From NCBI GenBank assembly GCA_964023275.1, contig OZ029921.1:30891230-30955229 (forward strand): a stretch of 64,000 nt of DNA, in the 5' to 3' direction. Under the pieces are notes generated by a model. The model was given only the letters and a program-made list of their open reading frames with translations, was not told the DNA's origin and did not search any database. Position numbers and translations under genes: made by a program. Positions 12,401-60,319 of the stretch are shown piece after piece (position 1 is the first letter of the stretch; each line of letters starts with the position of its first letter). Source of the stretch: Norana najaformis (lineage: Eukaryota > Annelida > Clitellata > Crassiclitellata > Hormogastridae).

Positions 12401-15400
12401 GAGATCTTTCACTTATAATGTCTAAATAAATAAAATTAATAAATAAATACACAAATAAGTAAACCACCAGCAGTCCTAAAATGCACCATCAAACATCACT
12501 TCTAAGTGAAGCTCTCCTTACGTCATAGCAGGATGTAACAGAGGCTTGAGCTGCAGTGATGGGTATATTGGTAATTAATTAATTAGAAACTAATTAATTA
12601 CCTAATTAATTAGCCTGGTAGCTAATTCAAATTCCAATTAATTAGTAACAAAAACCTTAATTATCCATTGTTCCTGAGTTGACACGGTATCAATTCTTAA
12701 CTCAAAGAAATAGAAATGTGCATCACAGAATACGCTGTTTAAATCTCAGCCTGTCGCAAGGCCACATTCAGCAAAAGGCAAGCAAAAAATTGGACGACAC
12801 CCCAAGAGACGTAATTCAGTGCCTATTCCAACCACCTCTGTCTGTATCCTTCTCAACTGCAACACACTTCCTTCTGTATTCAATACACACCCACTTAAGA
12901 CTGTCAGAAAATGGTCACTCTCATCTAATCTAAGAACTCCTCCATCTACTGGACAAATGAGGAATTCAAACTGAACAAACCTGCTGCAGGGACGTATCAA
13001 GCTGTAAGCACTCAATAAACGATGAAGGATCGATGAACCTGCAAAAAAGAAGCACAAATAGATCTGCACTTGAAGCAGCGCTTTCACTAACTAGAATCAA
13101 CACTGCACATTAGTATCTAACTTCATAATCGTAATTAAGGATTTATAAAGCGCCACTTCAAGATAATCTCATCACAGACGCTCCCAGCCTGATAATCCAG
13201 AACCACTGGGGAACAGAACGGTCTTCAAATGCTTGCAGAGGAGAGAATGAGAAAGGCAAAAAAAGTTCACGCTGAAAGTCACTAGGCAAACTGTCCCAAG
13301 TAGGGCCAACCACCGCAAAGCTTCTGTGCTCAGCTGCGGCTCTTTGGAACAACAACCAACAATCTAAACAGTTACAACAGTTTCACCTAAATTATTACAA
13401 GTGCTGCCATCAAAGGTCAATCCAGACGGGACAAATGTCCTGCTACAGAATGGATTACCCTCTCTGCAGCCAAGTATAGAGGAGGTCAGAACGTAAAGCT
13501 CCCTTGAATAGAGTGGGGCACAACCAGTGAGAAAGTTATGCACAAAAACCAGGATTTTGAATTCAGTATGTTCCCCAACAGGTAGCCAGTGCAATTCTTC
13601 AGACACGATGGCAGAGATATTAAAAACTTAGGAATACCCCAATCAGGTGGGCAGCAGCATTCAGCATTTATTAACTGGTATGCTAGAAATGCCAGATTAC
13701 AGCAACAACTAGTTAATGGCAAACAAGCAATTCCTCAAGTCCTCACCATGTAATGCTTAGCAAACAGGTCTAAGCCTTTCATAAGATAATCACCATGTCA
13801 ATATCTTCACCTTGTCACCTTGTGCTGTCAGCTCTTTGAGCTCTAGCGACCGTCATGATCAATCTTCTCCATTTCTTTCTTTCCAATGTCGCGTCCCTTA
13901 GTTGTGCCAAGTTCATTCCAGTTGCTTCGTGTATCTTGTCCATCCATTTTTTCCTTGGTCTCCCTTGTTTTCTCTTTCCCTCTCCACAAGCCAGCATCGT
14001 TTCTTTTTCCAATCCATCTGATCTCATAACATGTCCAAAGAACCTCAGCTTTGATTTTAGCACTGTTTGTTGTAACGTCTCATCTTGCTCAATTCCAATC
14101 GCCTTGCGTACCCACTCATTAGTCCTTTTCGCAAGCCTTAATGCATAACTGCTTAACAGCTGTGGACCTGTAAAAATTTGGACATGACGGGGCAAACCAA
14201 AAAACCATCAGTTGTAAATGCCCCTAGACTCTTGCCCCATGTGTGGCCGGCCACCCATGCCTAGCAGCACTGATCACAGTTTTGTCAGCAGATAGCCAAG
14301 TATTACAAAATTAGGAAAGAAAAATAAAATAACTAAAGACCAACTCACTGGCGATCACTGAAGGAGAGAAGAGCAAAAATGAGCTGCAACTGGTCAACTA
14401 CGTTTGTTGGTGATAATGAATGTTCAGCTAAAATAAGAAAAAACTTTCAATTAAAGTTTCTTACAAATACACGAGAACCTCCTCCTGATCGACCCAGTAC
14501 CATGTTATAAAAAGGCAGTGTTACAATAATTGTTCTAAAGGTGAATTAAATTTGGGTCTCAACCAATTAATGAATTCATACAAAACTGAAGCATAATAAA
14601 ACAAGGCTCTGATGTACCACATAAAAATTATCACAAAGCAGCAGGCAATTTAACATTTGGGAAAAACTTTTAACCTCTGAAAACTGGTTCAACCTAATAG
14701 AGGCACAATACAAGCTTTTAGGTCGATACAGATTATGTAAACAACATGCCCAGAAATACAAATATATAAAAACGGCATCAAGCAGTAAGTGAAGATGGTG
14801 GGCTTTGATGTATCTGACTCATACGACAATCAGGTGACTGTTACATGAGTCAAATACCAAGTCAAGCGAATTTAGTTTGAGGCCAGATCAAATGTGCCCC
14901 ATCCAAAATTAGACCTTCGCTTTGGGTCCTTTTTCCACTTCAATGCTTCTTTAAGCTCCAGATCAAATCCAACCTCTTAATCAAATCCAAGCTGCTGCAA
15001 AGAGTGAGTTTCGACCAACAAACAATTTCATACGTACACAATCTATCGCCCCATGAATTCATCAGTCCCCTTCTATCGTCCGACCATTCCAGAATTCCCC
15101 TTCGGAATTCTGGGTTGTGAAACCAGACCTGTGCAAAAAAGTAACGCCCAGTTTGTAAATGAATGTTTGTGAATACTCTTCACCAGCTCTTCAAAAGTGC
15201 CGCATACATAAGTAAAGGATGGATGACAAATGACCCATAATTATAAAAAGAAAACACATACTGTGCCGCATCAGTTGGAACACTGTAACGTGCAATGTAA
15301 TGTAACTAGAAATTATGTAGCATCTTCTAAGAACCTCTTTCTACCAGCCCAAGTAATCTTACAACAACAAATTCATCTGCAGGCCAGTGATGCTCAAACA

Positions 15401-49273: not shown

Positions 49274-50740
49274 CTATGATTAAGATTAAAACATCAATGT
49301 AAGAAGTAGGAATCATTCTATACCCATATCAACATCTCACATTTAGTCACAAGGTTAGGCATGCACATAAAAAAATTTCCCCACTTAGTAACAACTATAC
49401 GAAACTATAGTAACAACTATGTACTGAATCGAAATCAAAGAGCACAGCACTTTCGGTAGGTGTTTAAGAGGTTCTATATAAAGTATTTTGATAATTACAT
49501 GCATATAGTTTCTCAACCTGAAACTTTTGCCCATTACAACAAGCAGAATGTGACCTCATTCCATACAAGGGAGTGCTTTTAAGTAGGTATCACTGTTGGA
49601 TGTACTAAATCTCTTAAACTTGCTTGATTCTGATTCAATTCATGGGAGTAAGTAGATGAATCTTTTGTGATACTGTAAATATGCTCCAAAACTCATTAAA
49701 GAATGGAAAAAATTGGCACACACAATCCATTCAGAGGAACCCTTCCTGCTACATTACCATTATATTATCCTAAAAATCCAGGCAAAAAATAACTAAAACA
49801 AAACCCTTAGTACTACCAACACAATATGTCTGGTATGTGAATATATGGCCACACAGCTACAGCACACCTACCACACACATCTGTTGTGAGTGGTACTTGT
49901 GGGGTAAACTGTCCAAGACCAAAATTAGCAAAGCAAGCTTACAGCATCTTCTTAAAACCCGGGCACTGATGTTAATTATAAGAAATCCCATCATCAGACC
50001 TAAACTAGTGGCACCAAGAGACTGTAGTGTAAATGTAAATCTCTGAAATTTCTGTGCCACCTAAAATCCGCGTCAGGGAAACCAGCTCGTTCACCGGTGT
50101 GTTACATCAAATCCAGTCTGCAAGAACCAGATTGTTCACTCATTTTCAGTACCAGATCAGAATTTAGGGGATCAAGCCAGGGGGACAACGTGGTGGTATG
50201 GTGGAAATTGTTGATGAAGGTGGTCACGGGACAGTGCGGGAGTGAAAGCAGGATAGGACAGCTTGAAAAGAGATTCTGACAGAGCTGCTTCATGTTAATT
50301 ACAAAACCTACCCTGGGAACTTCTCTCTGCTCACGAGAATTATACAGTCCTTTTGTGCAATCTGCAATTATTAGGTGCAAAATGACAAGTTGCAAGAAGG
50401 TAGATGAATGATAAGCTGTAAGCAGGCCAATGAATAAATACAACACCAGAGAAAATACAAATTTACAATCCATCAAGTCATCACATAATTAACTACTGTT
50501 TCTGAGGTGAATTCATAATTAGCATGATATAAGAATCTGATCAGTAATAATAATGACGTTATGTAATATTTGCCATAGATAGCAAATAACTTGGGTAAAG
50601 TCACACCTCTGTATCTCGCTAAAGTACACATACAAGCTTCAAGTCCAGTGGTTCTGAAAATTGTGGAATGATAAAGAAATTACATCGAGCCAGACACAAC
50701 CGTGTCCCTGGCAAAGAAGGGAAGCTCAGCAGTCAACAAG

Positions 50741-53700
50741 TTATGGATTAGAAACTGGTCTTCCTTCTGTAATTTTCAGAAGCACTTTCGACCAAGTAGC
50801 TTTGATTGAATGCCGCACTTTATCGTTGTACTGCCTCATGCGCTGACTGATTTCACTGAGGTCAACCTTAACCATCTTGTCCACAAGGTCATCCACTGAA
50901 TCAAAGTATATGACGTGTGGCCATTGATAAAAGTCGGCAAAGTTCAGCCAGTAGCGAACTGCATCCTCGTCCATGTCATTGTTTGGGTCTGGTACTTTGG
51001 AAAACAATCCAGGTATTCCGGACTTTGATGACTGTCTCATCATGTACCCATTCCACGTCCGCTGCCTCACCACTTGGTACTTCATGTGCCACTTTGTAAG
51101 GAGATCAAGCGATGGAAAAAACAGGGGAATGTTCATTCGGTACTGTTCAGTGAGGCTCACCATCGATACTTGATATGGAATGTGAATGATGCCACGGTGC
51201 GATGCAAGATCGGAGAAGAGATATTGGGGGTACATCTCTCTCAGTGGAAACATGACTAGATTGAGCTTCCGCTTCAGAATGACGTTATCAAACTCGGCAA
51301 AGAGGATGTCGTACAGTTCTGAGCTGTGAATTGGTGAGACAAGAAACTGCTTTCTTGTCGGATTGTAGGAGTCCGTAAGGTAGGCACAGTAGTTTGGCAA
51401 TATCAGTGGCTTCAAGCCAGTGAAATACTCAATGTACTTGGCATCGTAGAGATTGTTGGCAGCAAGGACACTCGTCCTGTGTTGGCTGACGTTAAACAGC
51501 AGTTTATTAAGAGCATTCCACTTATCAGGCTCTGGGCGTGCCTGTTCGTAACGAATTGTTGCAATTATCACCATACTCTTGTTAAACGGCACAAAAGCTT
51601 CACACATTGCAACCGGTAAAGTGCAGATAAATGCTGTCACTGACTTCATTGTGGGGTCATCTTTGTAAAATCGGTAAAACTGATCAATGACCTCTGGATT
51701 GAGACGCATACCATTGTCACTGTTGATGATCTTGAGATTTCGTGCACAGGTTCCTACCTTTCCACAGTAGTATGACAGACTGTTGTCAACGATCTTAACA
51801 CCAATTGAACTGAGGAGACTTTTGATGTCCATCATTGGAGTGACGTGATAGTCCTGAGACCAGAAAACTGGCTGATGTCGGATTACTGAGCGAACAGTTT
51901 CCTCATCAAATCCAGTATTCTTAACAAAAACACAATCTGGCTGCAGGTAAGTATGATTCCAGAAAAGAATGTCATCACTATCCACTGGCTGATCATTTGC
52001 ATCATAGTGCTGACCAACAAACTCGTTTTCCTGGCGTAAAACTGGAAAAGGATGGCTGCCTGGCCACTGGGTACAAGAAACACTGTCGTGGCTGAATGTG
52101 AAATCCTTGGCACGTGGCCAGAGAGAATTCCGGAGAAAGTCTGCCTCCGACTTGTATCCTTTCATCATCATCATCAGTTTTCGAAATGATACCCCAGTGG
52201 CATTTCTCAAATGTAGCGGCATACCACCAATGAGGCCTGAAACAAGAGGGAGAGCTGCATGCGTCGGATGATCGCGAATGCAATAGAGTGGAGCCTCATG
52301 CTGTAACCAGTCATCCAATGCAGCAGCTTCGCGCTCGCTCGGACGCATTGTGGCATCTCTTACTATGAATCTCTTCACTGAAGTGTCATCAGCTATGAGG
52401 TACTTCCAAAGTGATGGAGGCAAACGGGACGAAGTCTTGTTGCTGAGCCGAACAACTTCGACCCCAGAGCTCTCCATCTTCTTCACAAGAATTCTCAGCA
52501 TTCGTGTCTCTGTAGCATTTCCTGCTACATAGACTCTTAGGCGCCATTTTGGAAAAAGAATTGGTACAAGCTGTGAATATCGTAGGCTGCCGTAGAGCAA
52601 GTTCACATCATTTCCATACAGCGACATTGAAATGACATTTGCCATTTCTTTATCCCATGACGTACCCATAACTCCCTTCTTCAGATCGATATATCTCCTC
52701 AAAACCACCCTTCCGATCTCCACTTCCACTTTGATCCTGCTAGCCTTGTCGTAATGTGCCACATACCTCTGGCCCTTCTCCATTGTGTGCTTCACTCTGG
52801 TGCCCGGCACCTTACGACTGCGTTCAGGCCAGTACACTCCTGTAATCCAGTCATCTGCAAACCAATCTGTAAATACTCTTGGATAGTAGAAACCAAAAAT
52901 GTCCACATGAGTCCGATGGACAAAATCGTGAGTCAGAATAACAACGTTACCTTCCCTAAACCACGGACCTACCACGCCAACGTTTGGTGGATTGAATCTT
53001 CCAAGTTCATCAATGAATTTTTCTGTCCAACCTGTAGTTTCCATTACCGTATCATCATTTACCCGGTAGTAATAGTCCATGTTATCCATGTAAGCTGCCA
53101 TCATTGCATCATTCTGAGCCCAAGCAGGATGACCTGAATGCTGGCACTCAACAAAATGCAACGTGACGTTTAGACGCCTCGAGCATTTGCGTGCAACTAT
53201 TTCATAAAACATGCTCGTAAATAGCTTGTGAGAGCCCTCTGCCTGAAAAAAAGTATCTGTGTGGTCATGGGCAACATAGAAGTGGTAGCTGAAACCCCGT
53301 GTTGCAGTTGAACAGAATGACAACAGTAGACCCTTGAAGAAGGGTAACTCTTTCATCAGGCTGGCACGATCAAAGCTTGTTTGATCTCGTAACGTCAGAG
53401 CACAACCAACGGCGATCTGATTCTCTTTGTATTCAACATCGTTGAAACTCTCCACCCCAAAGTCCTGGGCGTTCAGAAAAGTTTCGGGGTCATCTAAACC
53501 CCCATCCCCAATGTATAACGCCTGTTTCTGATTTCTGCCAATAAATTCTGGTGCTCCAAGGACACTTTCGTGCAAAACAAACCCAACTTCTTTTTTATGG
53601 TCATGAGTGTCATGTCGCTTGAGCCCAATATTTAAACCAATTGCTTCATCACTGAATACCCTGTGGCTATCAAACTCATGTTGAAGATCATGATTATTAT

Positions 53701-53845
53701 CAAACAGGGTCTCGTGTATTGTCATGATCGTACCGTGTCCCAGCTGACTATACAGTAGAAAAATCAGGGTGACTGACGCCAGTGCTAGTGCACAAAAAAC
53801 CAGTCTTCCTCTGTTTCTTCTGATCATATTCGTATCTGAAGGCAT
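50741..53845 (-). CDS. Putative multi-module Golgi glycosyltransferase, intronless CDS
   Basis: A 1034-residue frame without introns. The start is the first ATG after an in-frame TGA 15 nt upstream. A single N-terminal membrane anchor (about residues 14-34) after a basic tail predicts a type II Golgi/ER protein with a lumenal body. Residues about 145-365 look like a GT-A nucleotide-sugar domain: AWAQNDAMMAAYMDNMDYYY leads to NDDT (263-266, a DxD-like metal site), then GVVGPWFREGN, and DWFADDWITGVY (327-338). Residues about 400-545 form a second block (SLYGNDVNLLYGSLR, FIVRDATMRPSEREAAALDD, YCIRDHPTHA). Residues about 720-1020 contain IPYQVSMVSLTEQYRMNIPL (889-908), which recalls the donor-binding end of GT-B enzymes. 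Several N-X-S/T sites occur (N226, N443, N631). I recognise similar hypothetical proteins but no named family; substrate unknown. Confidence 0.72.
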   Translation of the reverse strand: MPSDTNMIRRNRGRLVFCALALASVTLIFLLYSQLGHGTIMTIHETLFDNNHDLQHEFDSHRVFSDEAIGLNIGLKRHDTHDHKKEVGFVLHESVLGAPEFIGRNQKQALYIGDGGLDDPETFLNAQDFGVESFNDVEYKENQIAVGCALTLRDQTSFDRASLMKELPFFKGLLLSFCSTATRGFSYHFYVAHDHTDTFFQAEGSHKLFTSMFYEIVARKCSRRLNVTLHFVECQHSGHPAWAQNDAMMAAYMDNMDYYYRVNDDTVMETTGWTEKFIDELGRFNPPNVGVVGPWFREGNVVILTHDFVHRTHVDIFGFYYPRVFTDWFADDWITGVYWPERSRKVPGTRVKHTMEKGQRYVAHYDKASRIKVEVEIGRVVLRRYIDLKKGVMGTSWDKEMANVISMSLYGNDVNLLYGSLRYSQLVPILFPKWRLRVYVAGNATETRMLRILVKKMESSGVEVVRLSNKTSSRLPPSLWKYLIADDTSVKRFIVRDATMRPSEREAAALDDWLQHEAPLYCIRDHPTHAALPLVSGLIGGMPLHLRNATGVSFRKLMMMMKGYKSEADFLRNSLWPRAKDFTFSHDSVSCTQWPGSHPFPVLRQENEFVGQHYDANDQPVDSDDILFWNHTYLQPDCVFVKNTGFDEETVRSVIRHQPVFWSQDYHVTPMMDIKSLLSSIGVKIVDNSLSYYCGKVGTCARNLKIINSDNGMRLNPEVIDQFYRFYKDDPTMKSVTAFICTLPVAMCEAFVPFNKSMVIIATIRYEQARPEPDKWNALNKLLFNVSQHRTSVLAANNLYDAKYIEYFTGLKPLILPNYCAYLTDSYNPTRKQFLVSPIHSSELYDILFAEFDNVILKRKLNLVMFPLREMYPQYLFSDLASHRGIIHIPYQVSMVSLTEQYRMNIPLFFPSLDLLTKWHMKYQVVRQRTWNGYMMRQSSKSGIPGLFSKVPDPNNDMDEDAVRYWLNFADFYQWPHVIYFDSVDDLVDKMVKVDLSEISQRMRQYNDKVRHSIKATWSKVLLKITEGRPVSNP

Positions 53846-54662
53846 GCCTCTTAATTTTCATCAACTGCCATACTGCTTTTCAAAAGATCAGGTCTAACGA
53901 AGGCTGACAAAATTTCTAATCTGTGTAGTAAATTCCATGAAAGACCAGTTCTGCATCTGTAACATATTCTTTTTCATTCTTTAATGTCACAGTGTTTCCT
54001 AGCACCTGACCGAAGTTTTGTCTAGATTCATTTTTCTAAAATTTGTTCTCCAGTTCTAACTTGCCAGCTGAAATGTAATATGTGATAGAAAGTTTAAATT
54101 AAACTTTATTAGTGCAAAAATAATGTAATCATTTGAATTCCACTAAATAATGAAAAATCTATGAAAAACTAAGTTTTACAGTCATTAGACCCTGGTATTA
54201 ACAAAAATTCTTTACACATATGAAAGATAGAAGAGCTGTTGTAGTAGATTGTGTTTAGGCTGAGACAAAGGTGGATTAGAGCAGGATGAATCAGTGGTGA
54301 AGGGTTTATAAAGATGAGTGGTTTTGGAGTATTGCAGTGCAGAGAGATGTAGGTTAGTGAAACAACTCTGACTTGGATGTATTGCATGCGATGGGGGATT
54401 TTCAGTCAGTGCAGATTCAAGGATATGACTGATATGTTGATGCTTGGGTCTCCAGATGACAGCTCAAGTAAGTTCACTGTGGATAAAGAAAAAAAGCATT
54501 ATATGATCGGAACTAAAGTTAAGGAAAATTGAAAAAGCAGTTACCCAACGTGACTCCCACAGTTGAGTGACACATCTTAACTGTTGGCCTGCAAATAAAA
54601 TAATATACTAAGGCCTGAAGTTTCATGTTAATGTCAGTACTGTTTTTAATATCCCCTAAAGG

Positions 54663-57374: not shown

Positions 57375-60319
57375 ATGTGTGATGCAACTGAATGCCAGAA
57401 TCACACGGCTGAGCTTCGACTCGAGATAGCTCGCCTCGAAGCGGAGTTGGAGCAGGCGAGCTCCGACAAGATGAGAGCAGCCGAATATGGACTCGCCGTT
57501 CTGGAGGAGAAAAATATGCTCCAACAGCACTGTGATCATCTCGAAAGCCTTTACGAGTCGAGCTTACATGACCTCAACTGTACGAAGGAGGTATGTGTAA
57601 AAGAGAATGTTTAAATATAAGTGAATTGAGTGCCGACTTTGATTTTGAAATATCGTAAGTAAGTATGTTACGCCCACTTTTCTTAAACCGGGTCGAACTT
57701 TTGTCCACAGGGCAACTTCATGCCTGCGTGAAGATAGCCATGTACCCAGTTTGGTTTCCGTTACTGCCAGGTTGCTGGGTGAAATGTGCCATTTATTCAA
57801 AACCATCTTGTCTGGTAATCCGTGGCCTTCCTACATGCAATGTGGGGCCCTTAGCCTGACTCTCTTTACAGCAGCTTTAGTTCAACACAATCTTTACAGT
57901 AATATTACAAAACACTTTTCTTATAATTCCGTGTTGAGTTCTGTGTGTGTGTGTGAAAGCCTGCTGTTGGTGACTTTTCCAGCTGTTCAACGATCGTTTG
58001 CTTGTAGATGTATTTGTTGTTCTTAATGAACTGTGACATCATCTGTGGAAATGAGAAGCACTTTTTGGAAAATTATGTGTTGCAAAAATATTCAGTTACA
58101 TTATGATATAAACTTGAGAAACTTTTATTACATTTATGTGATAATGAATAATAACTGTCATCTTGATTAATGGTTTCTAGGCACTAAGCCGTGTTGAAAT
58201 GAGACAGAGAAAAGCGAACGAAATGGGCATCTCACACGAAGAGGGTTTTCTTGAGGAAGAGGAACAGCTCAAGATGACCATCACTGACCTAGACCAGGAG
58301 CTGCGGGTCACAAGGCAAGCCCTTGAGACCCTTACCATTGAGAAAGAGAAGGCTGATGCACACATTGCAGAGATGAATCTCCAGATGGAACAGCTGGGAG
58401 TGCTGAAGAAACAGCTGAAAGTTGAGGTCAAAGACCTGAAGATGAGAGAATCGCAGACAATGGCTGACTATGCGGAACTCGAAGATGAAAACGTTTCACT
58501 GCAGAAGCAGCTGATGCAGGTTAAGCAAGCACAAGTGGAATTTGAATCGATGAAGCACGAAAACCGCCGGTTACACGAAGAACTCGACGAGCTAAAAGCG
58601 GATGTTGAAGGCCTGAACCACCTCAAGGAGATTGTTGAGCAGAATTTGGAGGAGACACTGGAAATCCTGCAACGTGAACGTGAGGAAAAACATGCTCTGA
58701 AGAAAGAACTGGACTCAAGAATTACGTCAGAGTCGATGCTTGCCCTTCAGACGCTTGCTTCTCTTGGACTCAGTGACTTCAAGCCGAACCACTCAGATGG
58801 AGGGAAAGGTCACTTTGAGTCACTTCATGAAGATCACGACAGCCCAATGCTGAAGAAAATTGAGGCAGATTTCTTGACTCCAAACAAGGAGCTCCTCAAA
58901 GCAGAACCAGCTCCGGCTCAGGGTCTGGTTGGCGATCTGTTCTCAGAGATCCACTTGAGTGAAATTCGAAAGTTGGAGCAGATGGTGGAACAGTTGGAGA
59001 TGGAAAAAAGCCTGCTGGAAAGGTCACTCGAAGAGTCAAATGCAAATCTGGAGTCAGCAAGGCAGATGGTAAGTGAACAGACTGAAAAAGTTCAGGCCTT
59101 AAAGACAGAGTTGGATTTGATGGTGTCGGGTGCATGCGATGTGACAGACTCTGGCAGCGAACTTTCCAGCATTGTGCATCAGTTTCCAACATACATAATT
59201 GCTGTTAAGGAGATTGCTAACTTGCAGCAGGAGGCGATGAAGCTGCAGAATTTGCTCAATGACAGAACAAAAGAAGTTGCCAATTCTTTGAACATTGAAG
59301 GTGCCTGTCGAAATTATGAAGACACAATTCGAAGATTGGAAACAGAACTTGCTGATCGATCAGACAGGGTATCCGAAATCGAGAGCAGTCTTGGTTGGAC
59401 ACGAGAAAACCTAACAAAACTGACCAGTGACATTTGTCAAATGTACCGCATCATCTGTGAAGCAAGTGGTGAAACACCGGTGAAATCTATGTTTGAGCAT
59501 TTGCGACATCATGTGAGTAAACATCCGTTTAGGACGGCAGATGTCCCGAAGGATGCAGAGACAGAAAAAGTGGAGCTGGTTCCGGATGCTGGAACATGTT
59601 CAGAGAAAGATGGTCTTACCTCTCAGGACACCGTGGATGATTCAGCATCTGTTTCATGTTACAAATTGCTCGAGATGATCTCAGATCAGGTGAAGCATCT
59701 AAATCGTGCAGTCGAGAGGCTGGCTGATATGTCACGACAAAACCGTTCAGGTGATGCCACGTCTGGTGAAGAATTGTCGGAACTTCAGGAGCAGGTCGTC
59801 AAGCTGAGGGCAATGCTGGCAACAAAACGAGAACAGATTTCAACCCTGCGCACTGTACTTAAGCAGAACAAAGCGACGGCCGAAACTGCCATGACTCATC
59901 TTAAACAGCATTACGACAAAGAGAAGGCTGAGATCAACGAAAGCACGACTAAGCTGCGTAACGAGCTGATGCGCCTGAAAGAAGACGCAGCAACATTTGC
60001 TGCCTTGCGTGCCGCCTTTGCTCAACGGTGTGACGAATACACAACACAGTTGGATGAGCTGCAGAGGCAACTTTCAGCTGCAGAGGAAGAAAAGAAGACC
60101 TTGAACTCACTGCTGCGAATGGCCTTGCAGCAAAAGTTGGCATTAACCTCTAAGCTCGAAGACTTGGAAAACGACCGAGAAAGGAAAAGCATGCGCCCCC
60201 AGAGACCAACAAGGGGCAGAGGCAACAGGGCAGGAGGTTACAACAACCCACAACAGGCTCCAGACGAAGGCTACTACAGATATTCACCACAGTTACGATA
60301 TCAGAGGCGTGACTACTAA
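57375..60319 (+). CDS. BICD: Bicaudal-D dynein cargo adaptor
   Basis: Coiled-coil adaptor that links Rab6 vesicles and other cargo to dynein-dynactin. Two exons: 57375-57590 (residues 1-72) and 58181-60319 (residues 73-784), GT-AG, phase 0; total 784 residues, close to Drosophila BicD. The N-terminal coiled coil contains AAEYGLAVLEEKNMLQQHC, the AAxxG/CC1-box type signature that binds dynein light intermediate chain. A second block has YAELEDENVSLQKQL and VEFESMKHENRRL. The C-terminal cargo domain (about residues 630-738) has STLRTVLKQNK, LKEDAATFAALRAAFAQRC and EKKTLNSLLRMALQQKLAL, nearly identical to the family core. The protein ends in an Arg/Gly/Tyr-rich tail (GRGNRAGG, YYRYSPQLRYQRRDY). 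A CTTTCTAG acceptor 9 nt before the start codon suggests a 5'-UTR intron. Confidence 0.95.

Follow-up and report, generated by a model that had tools for sequence, protein, structure and literature searches.

We analysed a 64,000-nucleotide stretch of the genome of Norana najaformis (GCA_964023275.1, contig OZ029921.1, positions 30,891,230 to 30,955,229; hereafter the window), in which an intronless coding frame on the minus strand (50741..53845) runs from ATG to stop through 1034 amino acids and encodes three modules, termed blocks A, B, and C, after an N-terminal signal anchor. An earlier reading of the sequence alone had described this 3.1-kb frame as free of introns and of disabling mutations, which is borne out for the coding part. 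The frame has zero internal stops and is the longest open frame of the window, where only one other stop-to-stop frame (712 amino acids) attains at least 200 amino acids. The probability that 1034 codons stay open by chance is ~1.5e-30 at the base composition of the window and 4e-27 at that of the gene itself. A possible 3' splice site (ttacatttcag), found by eye, lies in the 5' flank and would allow an intron in the 5' untranslated region, so that the intronless status is established for the coding part alone. The G+C content of the gene (0.45) lies inside the range of four paralogous stretches (0.43-0.54; window mean 0.39), and composition thus shows no sign of recent foreign origin.

The hydrophobic segment, placed around residues 13-33 or, more widely, at residues about 9-36 (53738..53821; this and all following features of the gene lie on the minus strand) has a hydropathy maximum of 2.4 at residue 15 and is preceded by a basic patch; the next peak (1.76, residue 736) falls within block C. 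As predicted from these features, this is the layout of a type II Golgi enzyme with a short cytosolic tail and one N-terminal anchor, and the protein carries seven N-glycosylation sequons. Block A (residues about 140-385; 52691..53428) resembles glycosyltransferases of the GT-A type, as judged from its sequence pattern alone, and contains a DxD-type acidic motif, NDDT (residue 263, from 53059 down), as well as DDWITGVY (residue 331, from 52855 down). The anchor and both motifs had been named by the sequence-only reading and were all located, supporting its description of a membrane-anchored, glycosyltransferase-like protein of three blocks. Block B (residues about 400-632; 51950..52648) has a GT-A fold according to its predicted structure and the fold matches of that model, and carries RDATMR (residue 496, from 52360 down) instead of RDxDSR. 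No relation between A and B was detected. Block C (residues about 650-1034; 50744..51898) is akin to the genes made of C alone and to a protein encoded on two IMG/VR contigs, and weak evidence suggests that it is GT-B-like.

None of the modules had a convincing sequence match to a named family in Pfam, NCBIfam or the PDB, in line with the earlier statement that the three-block architecture could not be assigned to one. The family members that we scanned likewise gave no convincing Pfam, NCBIfam or PHROGs family match, so that annotation may leave such genes unnamed, and no such family was met among titles and the first lines of abstracts, a negative of little weight for a family with no name to search by. 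Between A and B, the fold matches of the structural model cover B only. The predicted fold of B is like that of the GT-A enzymes glycogenin, LgtC, UGGT, SpsA, and TarP, and a DxD-type motif is present in the relatives of B; in contrast to these enzymes, B has no significant sequence match to a PDB chain or Pfam family, and the window gene has lost the motif. Glycogenin and LgtC belong to family GT8, UGGT to GT24, and SpsA and TarP to GT2. In the Golgi enzymes LARGE1 and the chondroitin synthase complex CHSY3-CHPF, which have two transferase modules, several such modules stand behind one anchor and one partner is considered inactive. Both are among the fold matches of B (7zvj; 9q8z), whereas the window protein has three modules, no detected relation between A and B, and no sequence match found to either. 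Comparable known enzymes also include BshA and other GT-B enzymes. A lack of introns is in itself nothing unusual in a Golgi transferase: the vertebrate alpha3-fucosyltransferases FUT3-7 and FUT9 are mono- or biexonic, which PMC3655985 explains by retrotransposition; the window gene, however, belongs to another family, and its trees do not decide. Matches of C and B to DnaB, phosphoribosyltransferase and similar proteins lay below any cut-off and were discarded.

A search of the genome with the window protein gave 41 matching stretches, the window gene included, which we sorted into genes by their open frames rather than by transcripts. The modules occur in 22 genes that seem intact and in three broken copies (L008, with two stops, L024, and L026, all of C). 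Eight genes combine A and B (L010, L012-L018), five join B to an A that is altered or was fetched only in part (L019-L023), a single frame (L011) has B only, and six intact genes (L002-L007) have C only, each with a hydrophobic N-terminus. All three modules were found together only in the window gene and in L009 (L009:1808-8264 = G000:C12:2346807-2353263), which has a predicted protein of 1155 amino acids, B and C in one 826-amino-acid frame, and a B-to-C linker of about 200 amino acids. When a C-only protein and the B+C part of L009 served as queries, no further three-module gene was present among the matches listed, the match counts being lower bounds. The identity of the window gene to any relative is at most about 40-47%, and it is therefore no recent copy of anything found in the genome. 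In two intact sister pairs, neither including the window gene, the ratio of non-synonymous to synonymous substitution rates (dN/dS) was about 0.37 and 0.34. The B-only frame (L011:1949-4180, 744 amino acids) carries a hydrophobic N-terminus and a long tandem PPDGNRNAV repeat, followed by the B module.

The motifs of A and B are unevenly kept across the family. In B, RDxD is present in all five bacterial or viral rows of the alignment and in 8 of 15 genome rows (L009, L011, L017-L020, L022, and L023); the variants are RNAD (L012-L016), RRAD (L010), and RDAT (the window gene). RDxD also occurs in L021 and in the outer rows L036, L041, and L049, which were left out of that alignment. The window gene thus has a predicted GT-A fold in B with no DxD metal-binding motif, and we describe its B as folding like a GT-A enzyme and do not call it active. 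In A, NDD is found in 9 of 10 non-degenerate rows and is missing in L019, L020, and L023. Among the 13 genes with A and B aligned, both motifs are kept only in L009, L017, and L018, a pattern which suggests that one site of the A/B pair is usually retired.

The sequence-only reading had called for an intron-bearing paralogue, and L009, with the same three blocks, is spliced, which makes intron loss or retroposition a real possibility. It has four coding exons with gt-ag intron ends, the introns being placed ahead of VNDDT, behind DGLQ, and at the border of A and B. The last of these is a phase 2 intron inside an Arg codon (AG|G TAY), and the corresponding codons R384-Y385 of the window gene (52691..52696) are joined as AGA TAT. 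In a scan for the ends of this A|B intron, which left out L021, both ends were seen in L009, L012, L014, L015, L016, and L023, the donor alone in L010, L017, and L018, and the acceptor alone in L019, L020, and L022, while L013 had neither end at the expected place. The two introns inside A are found in L009 only; the eight A+B genes have A as an uninterrupted frame. The window gene crosses all three intron places with no residue extra or missing; L009, about 40% identical, is at most a candidate for its parent.

Overall, the best explanation, to which we give a probability of about 0.5, is that the window gene is functional and old and belongs to a multi-copy family of type II (Golgi-type) membrane glycosyltransferase-like proteins. 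Under this reading, A would be a metal-dependent GT-A transferase using its NDD motif, B a catalytically dead GT-A module kept as a scaffold or acceptor-binding part, and C a second transferase domain of GT-B type, and the protein may extend a Golgi glycan by one or two sugars. Less certainly, its introns may have been lost long ago through a messenger RNA copy, either as a retrocopy or by gene conversion in place. Several observations weigh against this account. No module scores above a curated Pfam or NCBIfam cut-off. The structural model is unreliable over a large part of A, residues 103-229 having a predicted local distance difference test score (pLDDT) under 50; the same holds for the model of C (mean pLDDT 41), whose fold matches are confined to its first 165 residues and which matched no viral structure at an expectation value (E) of 0.001. 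Retroposition gains no support from the flanks, where no direct repeats of at least 12 bases were found in 50300-54400 and no A tract was seen by eye within 300 bases downstream of the stop. Marks of this kind are lost with time, and their absence is expected of an old copy; with neither a poly-A tract nor a target-site duplication, the gene is not classed as a retrogene.

The gene may instead never have had these introns and may have diverged at a time when the A|B intron did not yet exist. This possibility, which we hold at well under even odds, was assessed with an A+B tree of 20 rows rooted on the bacterial and viral B rows. In the best tree, the spliced A+B clade has the window gene as its sister (83/93), and L009, L011, and the L019-L023 group lie outside, a topology which would mean intron loss. 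Further, a clade that joins L009 to the spliced A+B genes and leaves out the window gene is weakly rejected (p 0.038), and uniting all intron-bearing rows to the exclusion of the window gene and L011 gives a less likely tree, though one that is not rejected (p 0.092). However, a tree that puts the window gene outside every other genome row, which also counts against the account of a lost intron, fits equally well (a difference of 0.08 log units, p 0.494), and the A|B intron could then be a later gain. Single open frames are also seen in the C-only genes, in the B-only L011, and in the B+C part of L009, and relatives of both B and C occur in bacteria or viruses, as would suit an ancestrally intronless gene. 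In the C tree, the six C-only genes group together to one side, weakly supported (55/82), and a pairing of the window gene with just L002 is weakly rejected (p 0.040). A clade of the window gene and L009 appears in the A tree (70/59) and the C tree (45/11); it is absent from the B and A+B trees, yet is not rejected there (p 0.33 and 0.12).

A decaying or recently retroposed pseudogene without function is very improbable. A motif present in all five bacterial or viral rows is missing from B, and the broken C copies show that decay does occur in the family, but 1034 codons have remained free of stops at the low identity to every relative given above, A and C retain residues invariant among the paralogues (the window gene being one of the rows), and two intact sister pairs, neither with the window gene, show the dN/dS values given above. 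Another candidate explanation, which we consider rather unlikely, is that A alone is enzymatic in the window gene and that B and C are binding or dimerisation parts. The motif loss in B and the unproven fold of C are consistent with it; against it, viral contigs and the six intact C-only genes, with their hydrophobic N-termini, carry C by itself, and this suggests that C has a function of its own.

Relatives outside the genome were found for B and C. A scan of genome contigs with B as the query gave five bacterial loci (Hydrogenophaga twice, Azospirillum, a Verrucomicrobiales metagenome-assembled genome, and Bradyrhizobium), and three IMG/VR contigs gave viral relatives of B. For C, two IMG/VR contigs matched at 31% identity over query residues 36-400, with E values of 2e-57 and 9e-58 relative to candidate stretches only and a profile E of about 1e-75; the two contig proteins are 99% alike, and the term viral rests here on IMG/VR membership, not on capsid or terminase genes. 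Near the viral C gene, three frames match PHROGs glycosyltransferase, GtrB-like, and radical SAM families (E 1e-6 or better), and two weakly match methyltransferase families (0.0015 and 0.029). The whole window protein had no match in the viral contigs, and annotated phage records gave none for the window A, the window C, or the viral C protein. A was found neither in viral contigs or annotated phages nor in sampled prokaryotes of the phyla of Hydrogenophaga (0/398) and Verrucomicrobiales (0/288), sets without the genomes of known matches; C was found in 0/299 sampled prokaryote genomes, a set likewise without a genome with a known match, so that these prokaryote negatives show little. The match of A to phrog_14945 was not significant (E 0.09-0.12), and one viral protein reaches that family at 1.2e-6. 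A shared origin of A and the GT-A-like proteins near the viral C gene was unsupported, with a probability of 2.6% in a profile comparison. Tentatively, an undescribed animal glycosyltransferase family may have been built from separate microbial-type modules, so that part of the glycan machinery of the animal would have come from bacteria or viruses and one module would now be a pseudo-enzyme. This would cover a B common to bacteria and viruses, a C common to a viral-contig gene among sugar-modifying genes, and their fusion to a Golgi anchor. In the IMG/VR contig stretch L038:3072-6059, a C-type gene is preceded by two GT-A-like frames that are related to each other (39% alike, SDDF...W motifs) and flank a GtrB-like frame; the second of the two overlaps the start of the C-type gene by one base.

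The interest of the locus lies in an unnamed family, in module shuffling, and in the likeness of C to a viral-contig gene. The module sets (A+B, B, C, and A+B+C, with or without introns and with the motif of A or B lost) give a means of asking how multi-module Golgi enzymes are assembled and how one of two paired sites comes to be retired, and gene transfer could be tested on the resemblance of C to viral-contig genes.

Elsewhere in the genome, two broken cox1-like stretches (G000:C15:412069-412726 and 570464-571281) are probably mitochondrial DNA in the nucleus; as read by eye, they have AGR at one place where Ser would be expected, a hint of a bilaterian. To the left of the gene on the minus strand, single frames match the Pfam families RNF123-like TPR (1.8e-17) and ubiquitin hydrolase (6.6e-11). 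Farther off, the frame 13815-14207 (minus) resembles by eye the C-terminus of a non-LTR (long terminal repeat) retrotransposon protein; its sole Pfam match is TniQ, below the cut-off of that family. The right neighbour on the plus strand is a Bicaudal-D gene (Pfam BicD 1.1e-125; PDB 3.7e-111), the coding region of which (58181-60319) includes an unusually long open frame of 712 codons.
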